This document shows positions 11,321-50,722 of a DNA stretch of 64,000 nt, piece by piece. The notes below the pieces were generated by a model. That model ran no database searches, was not told the origin of the DNA, and saw nothing but the letters and a program-made list of their open reading frames with translations. Within the stretch, counting starts at the first letter, position 1; each line of letters begins with the position of its first letter. This stretch comes from Gemmatimonadaceae bacterium (GTDB lineage: Bacteria; Gemmatimonadota; Gemmatimonadetes; Gemmatimonadales; Gemmatimonadaceae), in the NCBI GenBank assembly GCA_019186945.1, contig JABAQJ010000001.1:62001-126000 (forward strand). The letters run 5' to 3'. The position numbers were made by a program, and so were the translations under genes.

Positions 11321-12549
<1,229 letters not shown>

Positions 12550-22437: not shown

Positions 22438-23934
22438 ATGCCGCGTGCGGAGCCTGGACGACAATATATCGGCATTGCTTCACTGGACATCCAAGCGTCG
22501 GAAGGGTTGCTTTGTGGCCCTGCCGGGCTCGTCCGGATGCTCCTCCAAATGTCGCCACCGCCAGAAATCGACAGACCCCGAGGGGATCTGCTCTCAGTTG
22601 CCATCATCGGAAACGATGCGGTTCTGGCGGCTCTTCCCGCGCATCCCGTGCAGCTCGCGCACGGCTGTCACCTGCTCGGATATCACGCGGTGGTTCCAGC
22701 GAGCTGGGGCGACGAACTCGTAGCCGACACCGTCCTGCAGAGCGCTGAACGGCTCGGTCGTCAGCCCGCAATCGTCTGCGCCTGCGATTTGGCCCGCTCG
22801 CGCCTAACAAACGGATGGGGCGGACTGCAGCCGTTCCTGATCTCCACCATTTCGCCTCCGGTCGCGGCCGCCCGCCACCTTCGGGCGATGCTCACGGGAC
22901 GACGACTGGATATCACGTTCGTCGGAGATTGTGTCAGCGGTGCGGATCCCGTCTTTGACGCCCGCTTTTCGCCGGATGTTTTCCTCGTCCGGCTGCGTTC
23001 CGCGGGCATCGACCTGAAGGAACTTCCTGCGCATTTCGATAATCTGGTGCCGCCGGATCGTCGGCGATTCGCGTCGTTGCCCGGCGGTTGTCCGGCGCCC
23101 GAGGCGCTCGCGAGGCGCTGTCCGGACCGTGAGCTGATCGAGCTGGCAGACGAGGATCTCGTTACCGAACTGGCGCAGCAGCTGTTGGCGCAGGATGCCG
23201 TCTTGCTCGACGTCGCCACGGGCGTGGGGTGTGCCTGCACCGGAGTCCGGCGATCAGCCTCATCCCGGACAGCTCGCGTGGCCGTCATGTCGCTGGAGCC
23301 TCCCCGGTCCCTTCAGCCCATCATCGAAGGGAAGCCACTCGTCGATCTGTCCGCAGGGAGCACACCCCCTGCCTTGGTTCTCCTCCCACGGGATCCGAGC
23401 GCCGATCTCATACAGTCTGAACTGCCGCACACGAAGCCGGGCGAGGCCGAACCGCACGAACCTGATTTCACTCCAGGCAGCGACTTCGTGGCGGACACTG
23501 CAGCCGCGTCGCTCCAGGCCCGGGAGTCGGTCCGCCGATCGCGGCCACCTGTGGCCACGACGCCTCCTCGAGCGCTCCGCGGGGTACGCTCCACGCGTTC
23601 GACGCCGTTATCAGCGACGATGCGAGAGCCATCTCGGTCGACCGTGAGAGCAACAGAAAACCCGGTAGGGCTTGCTCCTTCGGATGACGAGCAGAATGAA
23701 CGAACGCGTGTGGGTCTCGCCGTCGCGGCGCCCGTACCCACCGCGCCCGCGGTACGTCCGGCGGTGGATGGGCGCACGATGAGCCATCGGCGGGCACGGG
23801 TTGGCGTCGGTGCGCGCCGACCGCACGCCTTGTCGTGGCTTCGTCAGGATCTGCTGCGACAGGTGCTGCTCTGGACGGCGATCGCCATCGCGTCGGGGCT
23901 ACTCGCGCTCGCCATAGTAGCCAGGTCGCGTTAG
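22438..23934 (+). CDS. Divergent [FeFe]-hydrogenase-fold protein with C-terminal membrane anchor
   Basis: Residues about 50-225 resemble the large-subunit C domain of iron-only hydrogenase (Fe_hyd_lg_C): ASWGDELVADTVLQSAERL fits the GADL helix, ACDLARSRL lies where TSCCPGW should be, ISTISPPVAAARHL fits the SVKSP helix, ITFVGDCVSGAD fits MPCTAKKFE, and SLPGGCPAPE fits the late GG segment. Cysteines at 114, 116, 165, 265 and 267 are in roughly the H-cluster places, but the CCP and CxxxC spacings are lost. A Ser/Pro/Arg-rich linker of about 150 residues leads to one C-terminal helix (VLLWTAIAIASGLLALAIV). Probably a paralogue recruited for sensing or assembly. The homology is my reading and needs a profile search. 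Confidence 0.55.
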   Translation: MPRAEPGRQYIGIASLDIQASEGLLCGPAGLVRMLLQMSPPPEIDRPRGDLLSVAIIGNDAVLAALPAHPVQLAHGCHLLGYHAVVPASWGDELVADTVLQSAERLGRQPAIVCACDLARSRLTNGWGGLQPFLISTISPPVAAARHLRAMLTGRRLDITFVGDCVSGADPVFDARFSPDVFLVRLRSAGIDLKELPAHFDNLVPPDRRRFASLPGGCPAPEALARRCPDRELIELADEDLVTELAQQLLAQDAVLLDVATGVGCACTGVRRSASSRTARVAVMSLEPPRSLQPIIEGKPLVDLSAGSTPPALVLLPRDPSADLIQSELPHTKPGEAEPHEPDFTPGSDFVADTAAASLQARESVRRSRPPVATTPPRALRGVRSTRSTPLSATMREPSRSTVRATENPVGLAPSDDEQNERTRVGLAVAAPVPTAPAVRPAVDGRTMSHRRARVGVGARRPHALSWLRQDLLRQVLLWTAIAIASGLLALAIVARSR

Positions 23935-24548
23935 GTGTCCCGCTCGTCGTAGTCGGCCACGGCGCGTCGCATGGCGGCTGCGAACGACCGCTCGCTGAAC
24001 TCCGCTCGCGGTATCTGCCGAGTCATGAGCGAAAACTGCCGCTCCATCTCGGCTTCTATCATGGACTCGGTAGGGCCACGGACACCTAACGCTTCCACGG
24101 ATTGTACTGCCAGACGATGCAGCACCGCGCAAGTCTCCGGACGGAGAGCAGCGAATGCCGGCGGCACTCGGGCCGGGGGGGCGCTCCGTGCCAGATCCTT
24201 CCTTCGCCCGGACGCCTCGAACACCGCACTGGGTGGCGCCAGCGTCACGACGAAGGAGCCCGAGGTGTGCTCCTTCACGCCCGCCACCACGCCGAGCCTT
24301 CGCAACCTCGCGAGCAACCGTTCGACGTCGATCCGAATCACGGGTATCCCACCCGGACTGCCATTGCCGCGACCGGTAATGATCAGCACCTCTCCCGTCA
24401 GCTCAATCTGCTTGCCGCGCAGCCAGACCTCCGCCCGCCGGACGGCCTCCGGCGCCGCGGGCAAGCCGTCGCGCAAGTTCAGGGTTCGCGTGGGTCCGAA
24501 GCGCGCTTCGTCGAACGCCTGATGGACGCCGAGCGGCCGACGTCTCAC
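23931..24548 (-). CDS. Smr-domain-like protein (degenerate)
   Basis: 205 residues from a GTG at 24548 that overlaps the stop of the phosphatase gene (GTGA). The N-terminal half follows the Smr pattern: LNLRDG in place of LDLHG, a helix, VLIITGRGNGS matching the IITGRGxxS strand, a helix (VERLLARLRRLG), and HTSGSFVVTLA at the GGxGAxxVxL end. Active Smr domains are nucleases of MutS2 and RNA decay. The His of LDLHG is missing, so activity is doubtful. The C-terminal half is helical and unassigned. Confidence 0.65.
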   Translation of the reverse strand: MRRRPLGVHQAFDEARFGPTRTLNLRDGLPAAPEAVRRAEVWLRGKQIELTGEVLIITGRGNGSPGGIPVIRIDVERLLARLRRLGVVAGVKEHTSGSFVVTLAPPSAVFEASGRRKDLARSAPPARVPPAFAALRPETCAVLHRLAVQSVEALGVRGPTESMIEAEMERQFSLMTRQIPRAEFSERSFAAAMRRAVADYDERDT

Positions 24549-26134
24549 GGCCTCATCGCCACCCGTAGCACCTGGCCATCGAGCCGCTCCATTGGCCGAA
24601 TCCCCGCCAGTTCCGCCAACGTGGGCGCAAGATCTACTACGCGTACGCGATTTGGGTATCTCCCCGGCTTGATCCGCGCTCCCCACAGGATGATCGGCAC
24701 GTTGGCATCGTAATCGTGCGGCGTCCCATGCGTGGAGTAGTTGACGCCCTCACGATACCAGTACGGTTTGAGGGTGACCACGGCAGCGGCAGGAACATCG
24801 GGCGGCAGCATGTGGATCCAGCGGCGCGCCACGTAGTCCTTCACGGTGTCCTTCCGTGCGAGTTCGCTCACCAGGTCTACGCGCAGCACACCGTTGACGC
24901 GCATCGCGGCCCGTGCGAACGCTCGCGCCACAGAGTCCGGCTTGAGCTTCGCAACAGCGAGCGCGCCTGGATGCAGGTACAAAATGCCCTCATCGAAACC
25001 AATACCCTTGGGGTCGGCCCCTGCGGCAACCAGGCTTGCCTGCGTAGCAGCCCAGAGTTCTCGCAGCTCCACGCGATCCGCACCCGCGTTCGGATAGCGC
25101 GATTTAGCCTCTGGGAGCGGGGCAACCGCGTGATCGGCGGTCAACGCGACCAGCACCCTCGTCGAGTCCCGTAGCTTGAACAGCGAGTCAAAGAACGCAC
25201 CCAGGTAGCGATCGAGCCGCAGGATCTGGTCGTGGATCTCGCGTGAGTCCGGCCCGTATCGATGACCAACCGCATCTGTGCTCGAAAGCGAGACGGCGAG
25301 AAGGTCCGTGCGATCACTGGTGCCCAACGCCCTCTGCTGGAGCCCGTCGAGTGCGAGGGCAAGCGTGACCTGGTCCATCATCGGGACGCCAGCAAGCGCC
25401 ACCGCCGCCTGGCTCGAGTCCCGCGGCAGCAGGTGAGGAAACAGGAAGTCGCGACCGCCGCCCTCGTACCAGACGCTGTCAGGCTCGGGATACTGCGACT
25501 GGTCGAGCAGCAGAGTCCACGACTTCCCCGCGAAACTCTGCGGCAGTTGCCTCGCGTTGAACCGCTTGACCCAATCCGGCAGCGTATCCGCGTAGTAGGT
25601 ACTGGTCGTGAATGCGCCAGCAGGCCCGAACCAGAAGACATCCTGCTTCGCCCTGCCTAACGGCAAGATGGCTCCGCGATCCTTCCGGGAAACGGATACC
25701 GCACGCATGGTGGGATCCGCATAGCGCAACCAGTCGGCGAGCACTGTTCCGCGAAACCTGAATGGTGACGCGCCGTCACCTCGCACGCCAACGAGAGGCG
25801 ATTCCGGATCGTTCACGCCTGCCGCATTGGCCACGATCCCCGTACTGCGAGGAAACCGACCGGACATCGTGGATGCGTGACCTGGTGCCGTTTCCGTGAT
25901 CGCATGATCCTGAAATCCGTTCAGAAAAACGGCACCGCCCGACGTGAGCCGAGCGAGGCCACCGGTGAACTGCGGTGCGAACAACGTCAGGTAATCCGGC
26001 CGGAACTGGTCGATCGTAAGAAAGACGATCAACGTCGGCGTTGTTGCCGTGGCGCGCGGACGAATCGGCTGCGCGACGACGCCGCTCGGTAGCCATACCA
26101 GCAGCGCAAAGACGATGAGAGTACGACGCATCAT
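24545..26134 (-). CDS. PafA-like alkaline phosphatase (type I phosphodiesterase/NPP superfamily)
   Basis: Secreted metal-dependent phosphomonoesterase. The preferred start is the second of two in-frame ATG sites (26134; the other is at 26167), giving a signal peptide MRRTLIVFALLVWLPSGVVAQ. The metal site FLTIDQFRPDYL is followed by the nucleophile threonine in ITETAPGHASTMSG, the PafA/NPP arrangement. Further metal ligands are in SSTDAVGHRYGP and TADHAVAP, and the late His in THGTPHDYD. Close relatives release phosphate from many monoesters in the periplasm. Coupled with the Smr-like gene behind it. Confidence 0.92.
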   Translation of the reverse strand: MMRRTLIVFALLVWLPSGVVAQPIRPRATATTPTLIVFLTIDQFRPDYLTLFAPQFTGGLARLTSGGAVFLNGFQDHAITETAPGHASTMSGRFPRSTGIVANAAGVNDPESPLVGVRGDGASPFRFRGTVLADWLRYADPTMRAVSVSRKDRGAILPLGRAKQDVFWFGPAGAFTTSTYYADTLPDWVKRFNARQLPQSFAGKSWTLLLDQSQYPEPDSVWYEGGGRDFLFPHLLPRDSSQAAVALAGVPMMDQVTLALALDGLQQRALGTSDRTDLLAVSLSSTDAVGHRYGPDSREIHDQILRLDRYLGAFFDSLFKLRDSTRVLVALTADHAVAPLPEAKSRYPNAGADRVELRELWAATQASLVAAGADPKGIGFDEGILYLHPGALAVAKLKPDSVARAFARAAMRVNGVLRVDLVSELARKDTVKDYVARRWIHMLPPDVPAAAVVTLKPYWYREGVNYSTHGTPHDYDANVPIILWGARIKPGRYPNRVRVVDLAPTLAELAGIRPMERLDGQVLRVAMRP

Positions 26135-44455: not shown

Positions 44456-46707
44456 TCACGCTGCCACCGCCATTAGGCGCATCGCCTCCAAGGTCCGGAG
44501 GAGTTCATCCATCTCGACCGCCTTGAAGAGCGCTTCGGGGCCTTGTGATGCGAGATCGGTGAACGGCGATTCGTAGAGGCGGGACGTTTCCACCACGCCG
44601 TACTCCGTCAGGTGATCCACGATGAGGTTCACGAATTCCAACTGGTTCGCGGTCAACGTCTTGCCGTTCGTGAACCCGGCCAGTGCCTGCTTGGCAGCCG
44701 CCCGGTCCATACCGACGAGAGAACGCACGAGAAGCCCCAAGCCCTGAGCATCCTCCGCTGCCTGGCGGATGTCCTTCGGCTCGCCCACCCCACTCTCGCG
44801 GAGCAGACGTTCCAGTTCAGAGATGTCTGACAACGTGAGCGGCCGGTTCATCCTCAGCGTCGCTACGGCGACATGATCGAGATGCTGGCGCAGGAACGCT
44901 CTCGCCTTGGCAATGAACTTCGCCTGATCGGTGCCGACGGCGAAGCCCGGCAGCGTGAAGTCGGCTTCGCCGCCCATTGAATCTTCGAAATCGGTGTACA
45001 CCGGCTTGCGCTGGTTCTTGTCGATAAGTTGCACGAGCCCGCGCAGCCGGCGACGCATCGCCTCGATCATCGGCACGGTGACGTCCTGCCACCACGCATC
45101 GCTCAGCACATCCTGGATGAGCGCCATCTGTTCGCGGACCATCGGAATCGCATCCTTCTCCGCCAGAAGTCCCGCGATCTCCCTGACCCGGTCGCGCAGC
45201 CGCTCGAAGCCCGGCTCGGCATGCAGAAGCGTGAGCTGGAGCTTCAAAACGAGCAGGTCGAAGCGTTTTGCCTCCTCGTTCTCGGGATCGAGTTCCGTAG
45301 GGAGCCCCGCAACCTCGTGGGATAACTCCGCGATGGCATCTGACGCCAATGCCAACCATGCCTCGGCTCCGCGTACTTCTCCACCAGGCGCCGGTGCGGC
45401 CGCACGATGAAGTTGTCCAGCTTCATCGCGGCGACTTCGCGCTGCAGCAGATCCGCGACGGCTCGTCGCACCTCTTCGTCCGTCCTGGGGTCGCCGTACG
45501 TCGCCGTCGCCTCCCTGACCGCCGCAGCCAAGGCCTCGTTGGGCCGGCCATCGAGCGCCGCGATCAGGTCCAGCCGCGCGTCGAACAGCCGCTTGGCGAG
45601 CGATTCGGCCGCGTAGCCGTCGGTTCCCGGGATGTCCTGGCTGAAGTACTCGAGGTTCTGGCAGTAGTCGAACAGGTAGAAGAACTTCTTGTCCTCGCCC
45701 AGCCCGAACAGGTCCTGACAGAGCCGCGTGCCGCGCCCCAGCATCTGCCAGAACTTGGTCTTCGAGCGCACCAGCTTGAAGAAGACGAGGTTCACCACCT
45801 CCGGGATGTCGATGCCGGTATCCAGCATGTCCACCGAGATCGCGATGTGCGGAGCCTTGTCCTTGTTCGAGAAGTCGTCGATCAGGCTCTGCGCGTACTC
45901 CGTCTTGAAGGTGATGACGCGCGCGAACGCGCCCTTCAGGTGCGGGTAGTTGGCGTCGAAGCGCTCGGCGATGAACTCGGCGTGCTGCTGGTTCTTGGCG
46001 AAGATGATGGTCTTGCCCAGCCGGTCGCCCCCCGCGACCTTCTGGCCGCGCGTCATCAGGTGCTCCAGCACCTTGTCCACGGTGTCCTTGTTGAAGAGCC
46101 AGCGGTTGACGGCCTCGGCTTCGATCCGGTCGGGGACGTTTCCTTCGTCGTCCCACTCCAGCGCGTCCCACTGGTCCTTGTCCTCTTCCGACAGCTCGTC
46201 GTACCTGATCCCCTCGCGCTGGAACCTGAGCGGCACCGAGACCGCCTGCGGCGGAACGAGGTACCCGTCACGCACGGCCTCCTCGAGCGAGTAGGCGTCG
46301 GTCGGCACGCCGTCCTCGAGATCGAACAGGCCGTAGGTGTTGCGGTCCACCTCGTCCCTGGGCGTCGCGGTCAGCCCCACGAGCAGCGAATCGAAGTAGT
46401 CGAAGATGGCGCGGTACTTCTGGAACACCGAGCGGTGTGCGAGCGTGTTGATCACCCGCGCCTTGCTGAACACCGCCTCGCTGGCCGCCTGCTTGAGGCT
46501 CGGCTCGTGGATCAGCGCCGAGAGGTTGTCCTGGTACGGAAGCCGCAGCGCCGCGTCGTGCTTGAACGCCCAGCTCACCGCCAGCTCGAGCGTACGGCGG
46601 GCGTAGAAGCACGCGGTGCGCGGATCGGCGTGCACCGCGCCTTCCGCTTTCGACGCCGCCTCGAAGACGGCGGCCCATTCGCGCTGGAGGAAGGTGAACT
46701 GGCTCAT
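44456..46707 (-). pseudogene. hsdR: Type I restriction enzyme R subunit (hsdR), internally deleted and frameshifted
   Basis: The frame starts at the ATG at 46707 with the N-terminal DUF4145-like domain (FLQREWAAVFEAASKAEGAV). After about 90 residues it jumps to VINTLAHRSVFQKYRAIFDYFDSLLVGLTATP, the middle of the helicase. The nuclease region, Walker A and the DE of the DEAH box are gone. The second RecA-like half (AISVDMLDTGIDIP, QMLGRGTRLC) is intact. Near 45375 the frame shifts, and the EcoEI-type C-terminal domain continues in another frame to 44456. At least two lesions make it non-functional. Its ATG overlaps the stop of the AAA/DUF4143 gene. Confidence 0.88.
46532..46706 (-). repeat. 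Duplicated hsdR 5' segment, copy 1
   Basis: About 175 bp covering the first codons of hsdR. It recurs with roughly 90 % identity by eye at 48146-48320 in the same orientation. Confidence 0.85.
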
Positions 46708-47870
46708 GCTGCGGAGAGCTCCTCGCACAGTCCGATGAGCGAGACCGTCTCCACGTCTTCCGCTAGGGGAAAACGTTCCACGCCGCCATAGACCACGAGG
46801 CGCCGCTCCGGGCGAACGGCTTCGCAGGCCAGGCGGAAACCACGCTCCAGCTTCGGCGCGAGTCCGCGCTTGATCTCGATCGCCCAGGGCTTGCGATGGC
46901 CGGGGAGCTTCAGCAGCAGGTCGATCTCCGCGCCGGCCGCCGTGCGGAAGAAATGCGGCTCGGCGCCACTCGGCGCGGCGGCGATCAGCGACTCGATGGC
47001 CAGGCCCTCCCAGCTCCCGCCCACGGCCGGGTGCGCCAGCAGCGCTTCGCGGTCGCCGATCCCAAGCAACGCGTGCACCAGCCCGCTGTCGCGGATGTAG
47101 ACCTTGGGCGACTTGACCAGACGCTTACGGACGTTGCCGTGCCACGGGGGAAGGCGGCGCACGAGGAGCAGATCCACGAGCAGGTCGAGATACACGGCGA
47201 CCGTCTTGCCGTCCACGGCCAGCGCGCGAGCCAGCGCCGACGCGTTGAGCAGACCGCCCTGCTGATGCGCGAGCATCGTCCAGAGCCGGCGCAGGGTCTC
47301 GGCCGGGATCCGCGGCCCGAGTTGCGGGATGTCGCGCTCGAGGTAGGTGCGGATGAAGTCCGTGCGCCAGCGCAGGCTCGCCGCATCGGTAGCGGCCAGG
47401 AGACTCTCGGGAAACCCCCCGCGCAGCCAAAGCGCGTCGAGGCGTTTCCGACCCACCTCGCCCGCGTCGAGCGGGCCGAGCTCCAGATAGCGGATGCGTC
47501 CCGCGAGCGACTCGCTCGACTGCCTGAGCAGATCGATCGACGCCGAGCCCAGGACGAGGAAGCGGCCCGTCCCGCGTCCGCTGCGGCGGCCTTTGTCGAC
47601 GAGCCCGCGGAGGCTCCGGAAGAGGTGCGGGGTGCGCTGGATCTCGTCGAGGATGACCAGCTTGTCCGCGTGCTGCGCCAGGTAGAGCTCGGGCTCGGAG
47701 AGCTTTGCCCGGTCGGCTTCGGACTCCAGATCGAGATAGACCGTCGGCCGTGTCCCGGCGACTTCATGCGCCAGCGTGGTCTTGCCCGCCTGACGCGGCC
47801 CCAGCAGCGCCACCGTCGGAACTTCTGCAAGGGCAGACGTGAGCGTCGAGAGAAGCCGGCGGGGGATCAT
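46704..47870 (-). CDS. AAA ATPase with DUF4143 domain
   Basis: 388 residues, intact. Walker A GPRQAGKT is at 24-31 and Walker B LVILDEIQ has D75/E76; the sensor-like LVLGSASIDLLR follows. The C-terminal DUF4143 domain has ESLLAATDAASLRWRTDFIRTYLERDIPQLG, a winged-helix region, and a PD-(D/E)xK-like end with AEIDLLLKLPG and WAIEIKRG. Such proteins are common in defence and toxin-antitoxin islands, with unknown mechanism. It is inserted between two copies of the hsdR 5' end and overlaps the start of the hsdR pseudogene by 4 bases. Confidence 0.9.
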   Translation of the reverse strand: MIPRRLLSTLTSALAEVPTVALLGPRQAGKTTLAHEVAGTRPTVYLDLESEADRAKLSEPELYLAQHADKLVILDEIQRTPHLFRSLRGLVDKGRRSGRGTGRFLVLGSASIDLLRQSSESLAGRIRYLELGPLDAGEVGRKRLDALWLRGGFPESLLAATDAASLRWRTDFIRTYLERDIPQLGPRIPAETLRRLWTMLAHQQGGLLNASALARALAVDGKTVAVYLDLLVDLLLVRRLPPWHGNVRKRLVKSPKVYIRDSGLVHALLGIGDREALLAHPAVGGSWEGLAIESLIAAAPSGAEPHFFRTAAGAEIDLLLKLPGHRKPWAIEIKRGLAPKLERGFRLACEAVRPERRLVVYGGVERFPLAEDVETVSLIGLCEELSAA

Positions 47871-48145
47871 CCGTGCAATTATGGAGCTACGCTCCAGAAA
47901 TACAAGGATGCCTGGGGCCGATGCCAGGCGCGAGCATTCCCGGGCACATCGGCCGTCGGCGTCTCGAGGAACACCGCCTGGCTTGCCGCCTCATAGCACG
48001 CCCCGCGTCAAACGACCTCCGGACACGATCCGTGGCGCCATAGCTGGCGCATACTGGGCGCGATTGGTGGCGCGATTCATCGTAAACCCTTGTCCTGCAG
48101 GCGATAACGTCTGGCTCTACCGGTTCGTTCAGCGACCGCAATCCG

Positions 48146-48320
48146 TGGTACGGAAGCCGGAGCGCCGCGTCGTGCTTGAACGCCCAGCTCACCGCCAGCT
48201 CCAGCGCGCGGCGGGCATAGAAGCACGCGGTGCGCGGATCGGCGTGCACCGCGACTTCCGCTTTGGACGCCGCCTCGAAGACGCCGCTCCATTCAAGCTG
48301 GAGGAGGTGAACTGGCTCAC
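48146..48320 (-). pseudogene. Second hsdR 5' fragment (remnant; duplicate of 46532-46706)
   Basis: The minus-strand frames encode VFEAASKAEVAVHADPRTACFY and ALELAVSWAFKHDAALRLPY, the same DUF4145-like start as the larger hsdR copy. The initiation codon is GTG rather than ATG, and a one-base deletion a few codons later breaks the frame. Homology stops abruptly after RLPY. The flanks, 47871-48145 and 48321-48542, contain no recognisable gene. Confidence 0.82.
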
Positions 48321-48542
48321 TCCTCGATGCCCCCATGTTCTAGCCAGCCTTTAGCATGGCGGCGGCAGCCATCCATGTGAAAGGCTGGACCATCTTCACC
48401 CGGCGGGCCGTTTGCATCGTTTTGCTCCGGGATTGCAACCAGCGCCCGGCTCGTTGCAATCCCCCCGGCCCAACGGCCTTATCGATCAGCCAGTTACAAG
48501 GGGGCGAGGGGCGCTGGTCGGTCGCACCCCGAAGATCGCGCT

Positions 48543-50722
48543 TCACGGTTGCAATTCCTCGCGACCGACGCCTGGGTACCAACGGGCCGCCTTTGTCGTC
48601 CCGACGCTGTGGATCGTCCCCTCCTTGCGCAGTTCACGCAGCAGCACCTGAATCTGGCTTCGCGACAGCGCCGGCAGTACCTGCTGCAACTCCTTCATCT
48701 GTGCGCCGTTCGCTGCGTTGTCCCGGATGTGCTTCAGCAGAAGCGCTTTGTTGGTCCCTCGGTCAAGTCCCTTCGTGCGGGTGTAAACGCCCTTGCTGCC
48801 CAGCGCCGCGTAAAGCCCGCGCGCCAGGATGTATCTGGTTCCCCGTCCGCGCCCAATCGACTCCACCGCGCCGGCAGCAATCAATCCCGGCAGGCAGGCC
48901 TTGAGGTGCTCCGGCATTGATTGTTCGCGCCGGAGATAGTCCAAGGCGAGGAAATCGTACGTCGAGAACGACTTGAGCTTCTCCTCACCCAACCGCTCGA
49001 TGAAGCGCACGAACGCCGGGCTGGCAACCGTTCCATGCAGGGCCAGCCGCACCTGGTGCGCCGACGTGCCCGCAAAGCTGGGGGCGCCTTGCCCTGCCGA
49101 ATCGCGCTTTCGAAGATCAGGTTCATACCCTGGCCCGAGCGTTCGATCAGCCCGCACTTCGCCAACGCCTCGGCCAGCCGGCGATTGCGTGGGTTCTGCT
49201 GGTCGAGGATGTTCGCCGGGGTGACGCCCGCCGGCAGGCCACCAGGGCTCACCACCTCGAGCCGCTGGGGATACTGGCGCACGAACACCGAACCGCCGAG
49301 CCGGTAGTCCCGATGCGCGACAGCATTGAGCAGCGCTTCGCGTACCGGTACTTCGTCGAAGGTGGGGAGTTCGATACGGAACAACCCGTCCTGATAGCTC
49401 TGCCGGTCGTTGCGCAGGTTGATCTTGTTCCAGATGCCGTCATGCCAGAGGAAGAAACCCTCCCGGTACTCCTCACGGTCCTCAGCAAGCAGCGGCGTGC
49501 GCTTGTCGTCCAGGCTCCAGCCGTCGGCCTCCACGTCGTAGAACCAGACGAAGTCGGTGCCGCCGGAGTTGGTCTTGGTGAAGACGAGGATTGCGGTCGA
49601 GACGCCGGCGTACGGCTTGAACACGCCGCCGGGCAGCGACACCACGGCGTCGAGCTTCTGGTCTTCCACCAGAATGCGGCGCAGCTCCTTGTGCGCCTTG
49701 CTGGAGCCGAAGAGCACGCCGTCGGGCACGATCACCGCCGCGCGCCCGCCGGGCTTCAGGAGCCGCAGGAAGAGCGCGAGGAAGAGCAGCTCGGTCTTCT
49801 TCGTCTTGACGATCTGGAGCAGGTCCCTGGCGGTGTTCTCGTAGTCGAGGCTGCCCGCGAACGGTGGATTGGCGAGCACCAGCGTGTACTTCTCCTCCTC
49901 GCCCGCGTGGTCCTGCGCGAGGGAGTCGCGGTAGCGGATGTCCGGACTCTCCACGCCGTGCAGCAGCATGTTCATGCTGCCGATGCGCAGCATCGTGTTG
50001 TCGAAGTCGAAGCCGTGGAACATCCGGTGGTGGAAGTGCTCGTTCTGCTTCTTGTCGTGCAGCAGCTTCGGATGCCGCCCGCGCAGGTACTCGCCCGCCG
50101 CGATCAGAAAGCCCGCCGTACCGCAGGCCGGGTCGCAGATCACGTCGGTGGGCGTGGGCGCCGTCAGCTCGACCATCAGCCGGATGATGTGGCGCGGCGT
50201 GCGGAACTGGCCGTTCTGCCCGGCGCTGGCGATCTTGGCCAGCATGTACTCGTAGATGTCGCCCTTGGTGTCGCGCTCCTCCATCGGCACCTGGTCGAGC
50301 AGGTCCACCACCTTCGCGAGCAGAGCCGGCGTCGGGATGGTGAAGCGCGCGTCCTTCATGTGGTGCGCGTAGGTCGAGTCGCCGTTGCCGAGCTGGCGCG
50401 CGAGGTCGGCGCGCAGATACGGGAAGACGTGCTCGCCGACGACGGCCAACATGTCGGCCGGGGCGAAGTGCCTGAAGCGCGACCAGCGGAAGTCCGCGTA
50501 AGCCCGGCCCTTCGCGTCCTTGCCCTCCGGGAAGATGCGGCGCTCCATCGGCTGCTTGAGCCGGTTGGCCTTGTTTTCCTCCAGCGTGTGCAGGTCGTCG
50601 AGGCGGCGGATGAAGAGCAGGTAGGTGATCTGCTCGATGACTTCGAGGGGATTGGAGATGCCGCCGGACCAGAAGGAGTCCCAGATGCGGTCGATCTGGT
50701 TCTTGATATCACCGGTAATCAT
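48543..50722 (-). pseudogene. hsdM: hsdM fused to an AlbA_2/HATPase_c_4-type gene, then frameshifted
   Basis: Codons 1 to about 410 are a type I N6-adenine methyltransferase: DIYEYMLAKIASAGQNGQFRTP, motif I DPACGTAGFL and motif IV LVLANPPFAGS. Near residue 412 (about 49486) the sequence passes in frame, after SLDDKRTPLLAE, into DREEYREGFFLWHDGIWNKINLRND and REALLNAVAHRDYR, the C-terminal ATP-binding and winged-helix part of an AlbA_2/RecG-like regulator. A frameshift at about 49087 interrupts this, and the rest (HQVRLALHGTV to RYILARGLY and SRSQIQVLLREL) continues in another frame to 48543. The methylase C terminus, the AlbA_2 N terminus and any hsdS gene are missing. Confidence 0.85.

Follow-up and report, generated by a model that had tools for sequence, protein, structure and literature searches.

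The window, a stretch of 64 kb from a soil bacterium of the Gemmatimonadaceae, carries a frame that is open as the preliminary description had it, encoding 498 amino acids from the first ATG to the stop codon (P0001; Table 1). The gene is solitary: a desaturase gene lies divergently upstream on the minus strand, an Smr-like gene lies convergently downstream on the minus strand, and within the window we found neither operon partners nor neighboring genes for iron-sulfur assembly. The Smr-like protein has a weak Smr domain match, and its gene is the most constant neighbor of the P0001 family (21 of 28 loci, a count that possibly includes antisense frames). Elsewhere, the window holds an IS3-type transposase ORF with an ALIL frameshift pseudoknot, as well as type I restriction-modification-like genes in which two overlapping ORFs (44456-46171 and 45244-46728) seem to divide the frame of the R subunit between them, a sign of a possible frameshift.

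Judging from the sequence, translation of P0001 more likely begins at one of two internal ATG codons, since homologues begin just before the domain (their start codons lie 10 to 25 residues ahead of it) and promoter-like DNA lies inside the first 25 codons of the annotated ORF. The same hexamers with the same spacing occur upstream of the homologues L026, L027, and L028. A generic sigma-70 scan did not call a promoter at this position, and the resemblance to a conserved promoter is a possible one.

Table 1. Features of the P0001 locus and related genes; positions are those of the window unless preceded by a locus or contig handle
Feature	Position	Strand	Basis or remark
ORF P0001	22438..23934	+	First ATG to stop; likely start ATG 22537 (Met34) or 22549 (Met38)
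Possible promoter	22484..22512	+	TGGACA 22484-22489, 17 bp, TTGCTT 22507-22512
Degenerate [FeFe]-hydrogenase H-domain-like (Fe_hyd_lg_C superfamily) domain	22585..23330	+	Homologue profiles, predicted fold
L1 remnant C-A-C (TSCCP in hydrogenases)	22777..22785	+	Second Cys invariant in family
L2 Cys (MPC in hydrogenases)	22930..22932	+	Invariant in family
L3 remnant C-A-C (CxxxC in hydrogenases)	23230..23238	+	Both Cys invariant in family
Low-complexity Pro/Ala/Ser/Arg-rich linker	23331..23862	+	Sequence composition
C-terminal transmembrane helix (predicted tail anchor)	23863..23919	+	Arg-rich N side, 4 residues after
Smr-like protein	23931..24686	-	Weak Smr domain match
IS3-type transposase ORF	11321..12271	-	
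ALIL frameshift pseudoknot	12155..12271		Rfam RF01497
Type I restriction-modification-like genes	44456..50722		
Crp-family regulator	L037:5010-5849, L041:4987-5787, L026:5112-5957	-	Divergent from H-domain gene
Second domain copy (P0002, L002)	G000:C8:10438-11613		Same genome as P0001

Behind the domain, the low-complexity linker that had been described earlier is present and rich in proline and arginine, and the proposed tail anchoring is supported by a single C-terminal hydrophobic helix (KD 2.48 over 19 aa) that stops four residues short of the C terminus. Such a single C-terminal helix is seen in roughly half of the homologues; L027 and L028, the closest clade mates of P0001, have neither a tail anchor nor a Crp-family neighbor. 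The motif LPRAYVARRR or a similar one occurs in the linkers of about 20 of the 34 family sequences, and no clear copy was seen in P0001. In the form G-x-x-LPR(A/T)YVARRR, it stands in otherwise variable linkers of L007-L009, L026, L030, L033, L036-L041, and others.

Ancestry of the domain and loss of the catalytic motifs

Scanned alone against Pfam and NCBIfam, P0001 gave no match, even at an E value of ≤10, and thus does not itself reach the gathering cut-off of PF02906. A single-sequence search of the named genome contigs likewise returned nothing; an alignment-based search of the same contigs, those with homologues being from Gemmatimonadaceae/Gemmatimonadetes, returned 26 loci. PF02906 is matched by 18 of the 26 homologous domains (best E value, 1.7e-8), one of which (L009) exceeds the curated cut-off, and a profile-profile comparison joins the P0001 family to PF02906-positive relatives that carry a GGDEF domain (99.9%, 6e-34). 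No hydrogenase was found when the P0001-family profile was run against PDB sequences. Because the direct profile scans and this last search were negative, it is the fold and the intermediate relatives that link P0001 to the hydrogenases.

The fold was predicted with AlphaFold2 from 26 sequences (pLDDT, 87.5; pTM, 0.86). The PDB matches listed by Foldseek for the model are [FeFe]-hydrogenases (best E value, 7e-10), and alignment with VIA-align places CpI (6gm3) at the top of the PDB list, with a Z score of 18.9 over 260 residues. By fold and homology, then, P0001 belongs to the Fe_hyd_lg_C superfamily. The preliminary description had claimed the segment order and descent of the H-domain and had named a PF02906 search and structure prediction as checks on it, with a missing profile match and an unlike fold as the outcome that would speak against it. 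The segment order and descent are borne out by the homologue matches and by a predicted fold that is that of [FeFe]-hydrogenases; the profile match holds through the relatives and fails for P0001 directly. Altogether, the domain is almost certainly homologous to the [FeFe]-hydrogenase H-domain. In the same genome we dismissed one PF02906 match (C3; E value, 0.27) as chance and a third match (C10, L003; E value, 0.012) as unrelated. The genome also holds a second copy of the domain, P0002, which is 34% identical, reads AHCP, GACP, and GCHC at L1, L2, and L3, and has no predicted membrane helix.

The motifs that make a hydrogenase are gone. At L1, where P0001 departs most, CACD stands where hydrogenases have TSCCP, so that the proline after the cysteine is lost as well; at L2, GDCVSG stands where hydrogenases have MPCxxK, and the lysine is absent; and at L3, DVATGVGCACTG replaces ExMACxxGC. 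None of the three segments (CACD, GDCVSG, and DVATGVGCAC) is a catalytic [FeFe]-hydrogenase motif, and the canonical CCP and CxxxC spacings are lost just as the preliminary description stated, with GCAC at L3. The same description proposed to look for co-occurring maturase genes: HydF gave no match over the cut-off in the P0001 genome and 39 relatives (0 of 40), and HydG was absent from the same genomes, with the Thermotoga control positive for both. One could imagine an extreme variant that still works as a hydrogenase or H2 sensor, given that reactivity with H2 persists in group C/D enzymes whose proton paths are altered (PMC8163306), but with TSCCP, the L2 lysine, and CxxxC lost and HydF and HydG missing from the genome, such an activity is very improbable, and we conclude with high confidence that P0001 is not a hydrogenase.

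Four retained cysteines

What has been kept is a set of four cysteines, namely, the second cysteine of the L1 CxC, the L2 cysteine, and both cysteines of the L3 GCxC, and none of the 34 family sequences lacks any of them; the remaining domain is only about 33 to 48% identical to P0001 among them. P0001 thus holds a conserved four-cysteine ligand set of the kind that marks an iron-sulfur protein. The fourth putative ligand is off its canonical position, in GCxC rather than CxxxC: L3 of P0001 has the bridging-cysteine position plus a new cysteine at +2, a placement made by eye and by profile alignment since the automatic alignment is off by one column at L3.

Could the frame simply be decaying, or open by chance in GC-rich DNA? 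The lack of a direct profile match and the strong departure at L1 would fit such an origin, but the H-domain gene occurs in 42 of the 148 Gemmatimonadaceae genomes sampled, nearly all with E values below 1e-80, so P0001 is no isolated curiosity and belongs to a wider family. For eight pairs of relatives of P0001, dN/dS is 0.04 to 0.17 over the domain, and the homologous linkers, at 0.27 to 0.55, are under weaker constraint. The domain in these relatives is under purifying selection, and together with the four cysteines found throughout the family, P0001 included, this argues that P0001 is not debris; a pseudogene or chance frame is hardly credible.

The nearest relatives outside the family, by profile and tree, are Gemmatimonadota proteins in which Fer4, Fe_hyd_lg_C, and FeS segments precede a GGDEF domain (e.g., L014 and L016). 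They comprise two ferredoxin clusters, the H-domain, a Cx2Cx4Cx16C cluster, and GGDEF, the first three parts (ferredoxin, H-domain, and C-terminal cluster) being arranged as in group C/D sensory hydrogenases (PMC8163306, PMC13104023). In the neighboring family f2, the best match to PF02906 reaches 1.6e-22; there, as in two further families of the class, the PF02906 protein that we read is about 580 aa long. The GGDEF relatives share the GDEL, RRR-S-GG-P, and EPPR segments with the P0001 family, which forms one clade apart from them in the tree; they differ in having the ferredoxin clusters, the C-terminal cluster, and GGDEF, all absent from P0001, and in reading PCEGC at L3 where the P0001 family has GCxC.

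Among 31 GGDEF sequences, 20 keep all four cysteines, 3 keep one, and 8 keep none. Not one keeps two or three, compared with a shuffled mean of 21 rows if the columns were independent, a contrast that the relatedness of the sequences inflates. The tree requires two separate losses of the four cysteines. Keeping or losing the set as a block fits one shared cofactor, and the survival of two lineages that are without it means that the H-domain fold needs no cluster. The cysteine-poor cyclase fusions (L075, L081, L082, L084, and L062, and L016, L020, L021, L079, L080, and L083) appear to represent two independent losses; in those that were read by eye, the ferredoxin and C-terminal cluster motifs on either side seem to be intact.

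These observations bear on whether the domain has a cofactor at all. P0001 might be a pseudoenzyme scaffold in which the H-domain serves as a binding platform only and the cysteines have a structural role or hold zinc; the two GGDEF lineages that retain the domain but almost no cysteine of the set, and the lost proline after the L1 cysteine, are what one would expect in that case. We consider a cofactor-free scaffold unlikely in view of four cysteines that stay invariant in 34 sequences despite such low identity and that the sister family drops as a block. A cluster is probably bound by the domain of P0001.

A divergent regulator and a proposed mechanism

In 15 of 27 loci, the H-domain gene is divergent from a gene for a Crp-family regulator (cNMP_binding and HTH_Crp_2 domains). 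The regulator is found in 60 of the 148 genomes, and where a genome has both genes, their coordinates place them adjacent and divergent in 26 of 26 cases (association of the two genes over the 148 genomes, P = 0.0014, uncorrected for relatedness). A close Crp-family partner was not found in P0001's own genome, and because L027 and L028 also lack such a neighbor, the link stands on the other relatives only. We considered an FNR-type cluster in the partner and rejected it, as no N-terminal cysteine set was seen.

With the hydrogenase function lost and four cysteines kept at or beside the old metal site, we regard P0001 as a probable iron-sulfur sensor or scaffold. The preliminary suggestion of a redox or cluster sensor at the membrane, or a scaffold, is a fair hypothesis, and it is strengthened by the invariant cysteines, the cyclase-fused sister family, and the divergent Crp-family neighbor in relatives. 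We posit that P0001 descended from a group C/D-like sensory [FeFe]-hydrogenase that was pared down, losing its output domain along with the ferredoxin domain and the Cx2Cx4Cx16C cluster at the C terminus, and that the retained H-domain would be unable to carry the catalytic [2Fe] subsite. One iron-sulfur cluster would probably sit on the L1 cysteine, the L2 cysteine, and the GCxC of L3, and the C-terminal helix would tether the protein with the domain on the cytoplasmic side. O2, NO, or redox stress would then probably act through this cluster, whose presence or redox state would change how the domain or the long linker contacts another protein; where relatives have the Crp-family gene, this may be a contact or regulatory link to the divergent regulator, the partner missing in the P0001 genome.

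That P0001 is a stripped, membrane-tethered iron-sulfur sensor or scaffold derived from a sensory [FeFe]-hydrogenase is, on our reckoning, an evenly poised proposition, in which the cluster, its type, the signal, and the partner are what we infer. That it acts as a sensor rather than in another role is credible, and we put it forward with some reserve. More tentatively still, the Gemmatimonadaceae family as a whole might be membrane-tethered, cubane-only redox or gas sensors that arose from H2-sensing hydrogenases by way of a hydrogenase-like diguanylate cyclase as ancestor, with input and output domains shed, the cluster site rebuilt as GCxC, and the domain rewired to the divergent Crp-family regulator.

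Relation to known H-domain proteins

P0001 shares its H-domain ancestry with the group C/D sensory [FeFe]-hydrogenases TmHydS and TamHydS, in which group the proton-relay cysteine C299 has already been lost (PMC8163306, PMC13104023). In TmHydS and TamHydS, the H-cluster motifs are retained along with the ferredoxin domain and the Cx2Cx4Cx16C cluster at the C terminus, whereas P0001 consists of only the H-domain, linker, and membrane tail; it has neither the N-terminal two-cluster ferredoxin nor the Cx2Cx4Cx16C segment that define that group, and both are present in L014 and L016. HydDB links [FeFe] groups C1 to C3 to histidine-kinase, chemotactic, and phosphatase partners and has no cyclase-linked group, and our literature searches, which were partial in coverage, returned no GGDEF-linked [FeFe]-hydrogenase. 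The fold of P0001 is like those of CpI (6gm3) and HydA1 (3lx4), with VIA Z scores of 18.9 and 17.7, at an identity of 11 to 13% and with their catalytic motifs absent.

Nar1 has an N-terminal four-cysteine cluster site and a C-terminal tryptophan. P0001 has no such N-terminal domain, ends in ARSR, and differs further in its C-terminal membrane helix. Like P0001, Nar1/CIAO3 have the H-domain fold without [2Fe]H and without maturases. One might therefore ask whether P0001 carries or traffics iron-sulfur clusters, as a functional counterpart of Nar1/CIAO3, since Nar1 is an H-domain protein without [2Fe] that keeps its [4Fe-4S]H site in the absence of maturases (PMC12621388) and P0001 follows the same logic. 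The missing N-terminal site and tryptophan argue against a carrier, as do the lack of iron-sulfur assembly neighbors in the window and a transcription regulator as the neighbor common to many relatives; we judge this role improbable.

Our literature searches, again partial in coverage, returned no stripped, membrane-tethered bacterial form of the H-domain. To our knowledge, uses of the H-domain other than as a hydrogenase are mainly those of eukaryotic Nar1 and NARF. If the sensor or scaffold reading of P0001 is true, it would be a bacterial case of a non-hydrogenase H-domain, in organisms without HydF and HydG. It would also make testable how an H2 sensor loses its catalytic center and whether sensing is possible with just the [4Fe-4S] site that remains, in a readable series that would start at the hydrogenase and pass through the sensory form and the cyclase fusion, in which the cluster site is present or absent, to a bare, membrane-tethered domain.
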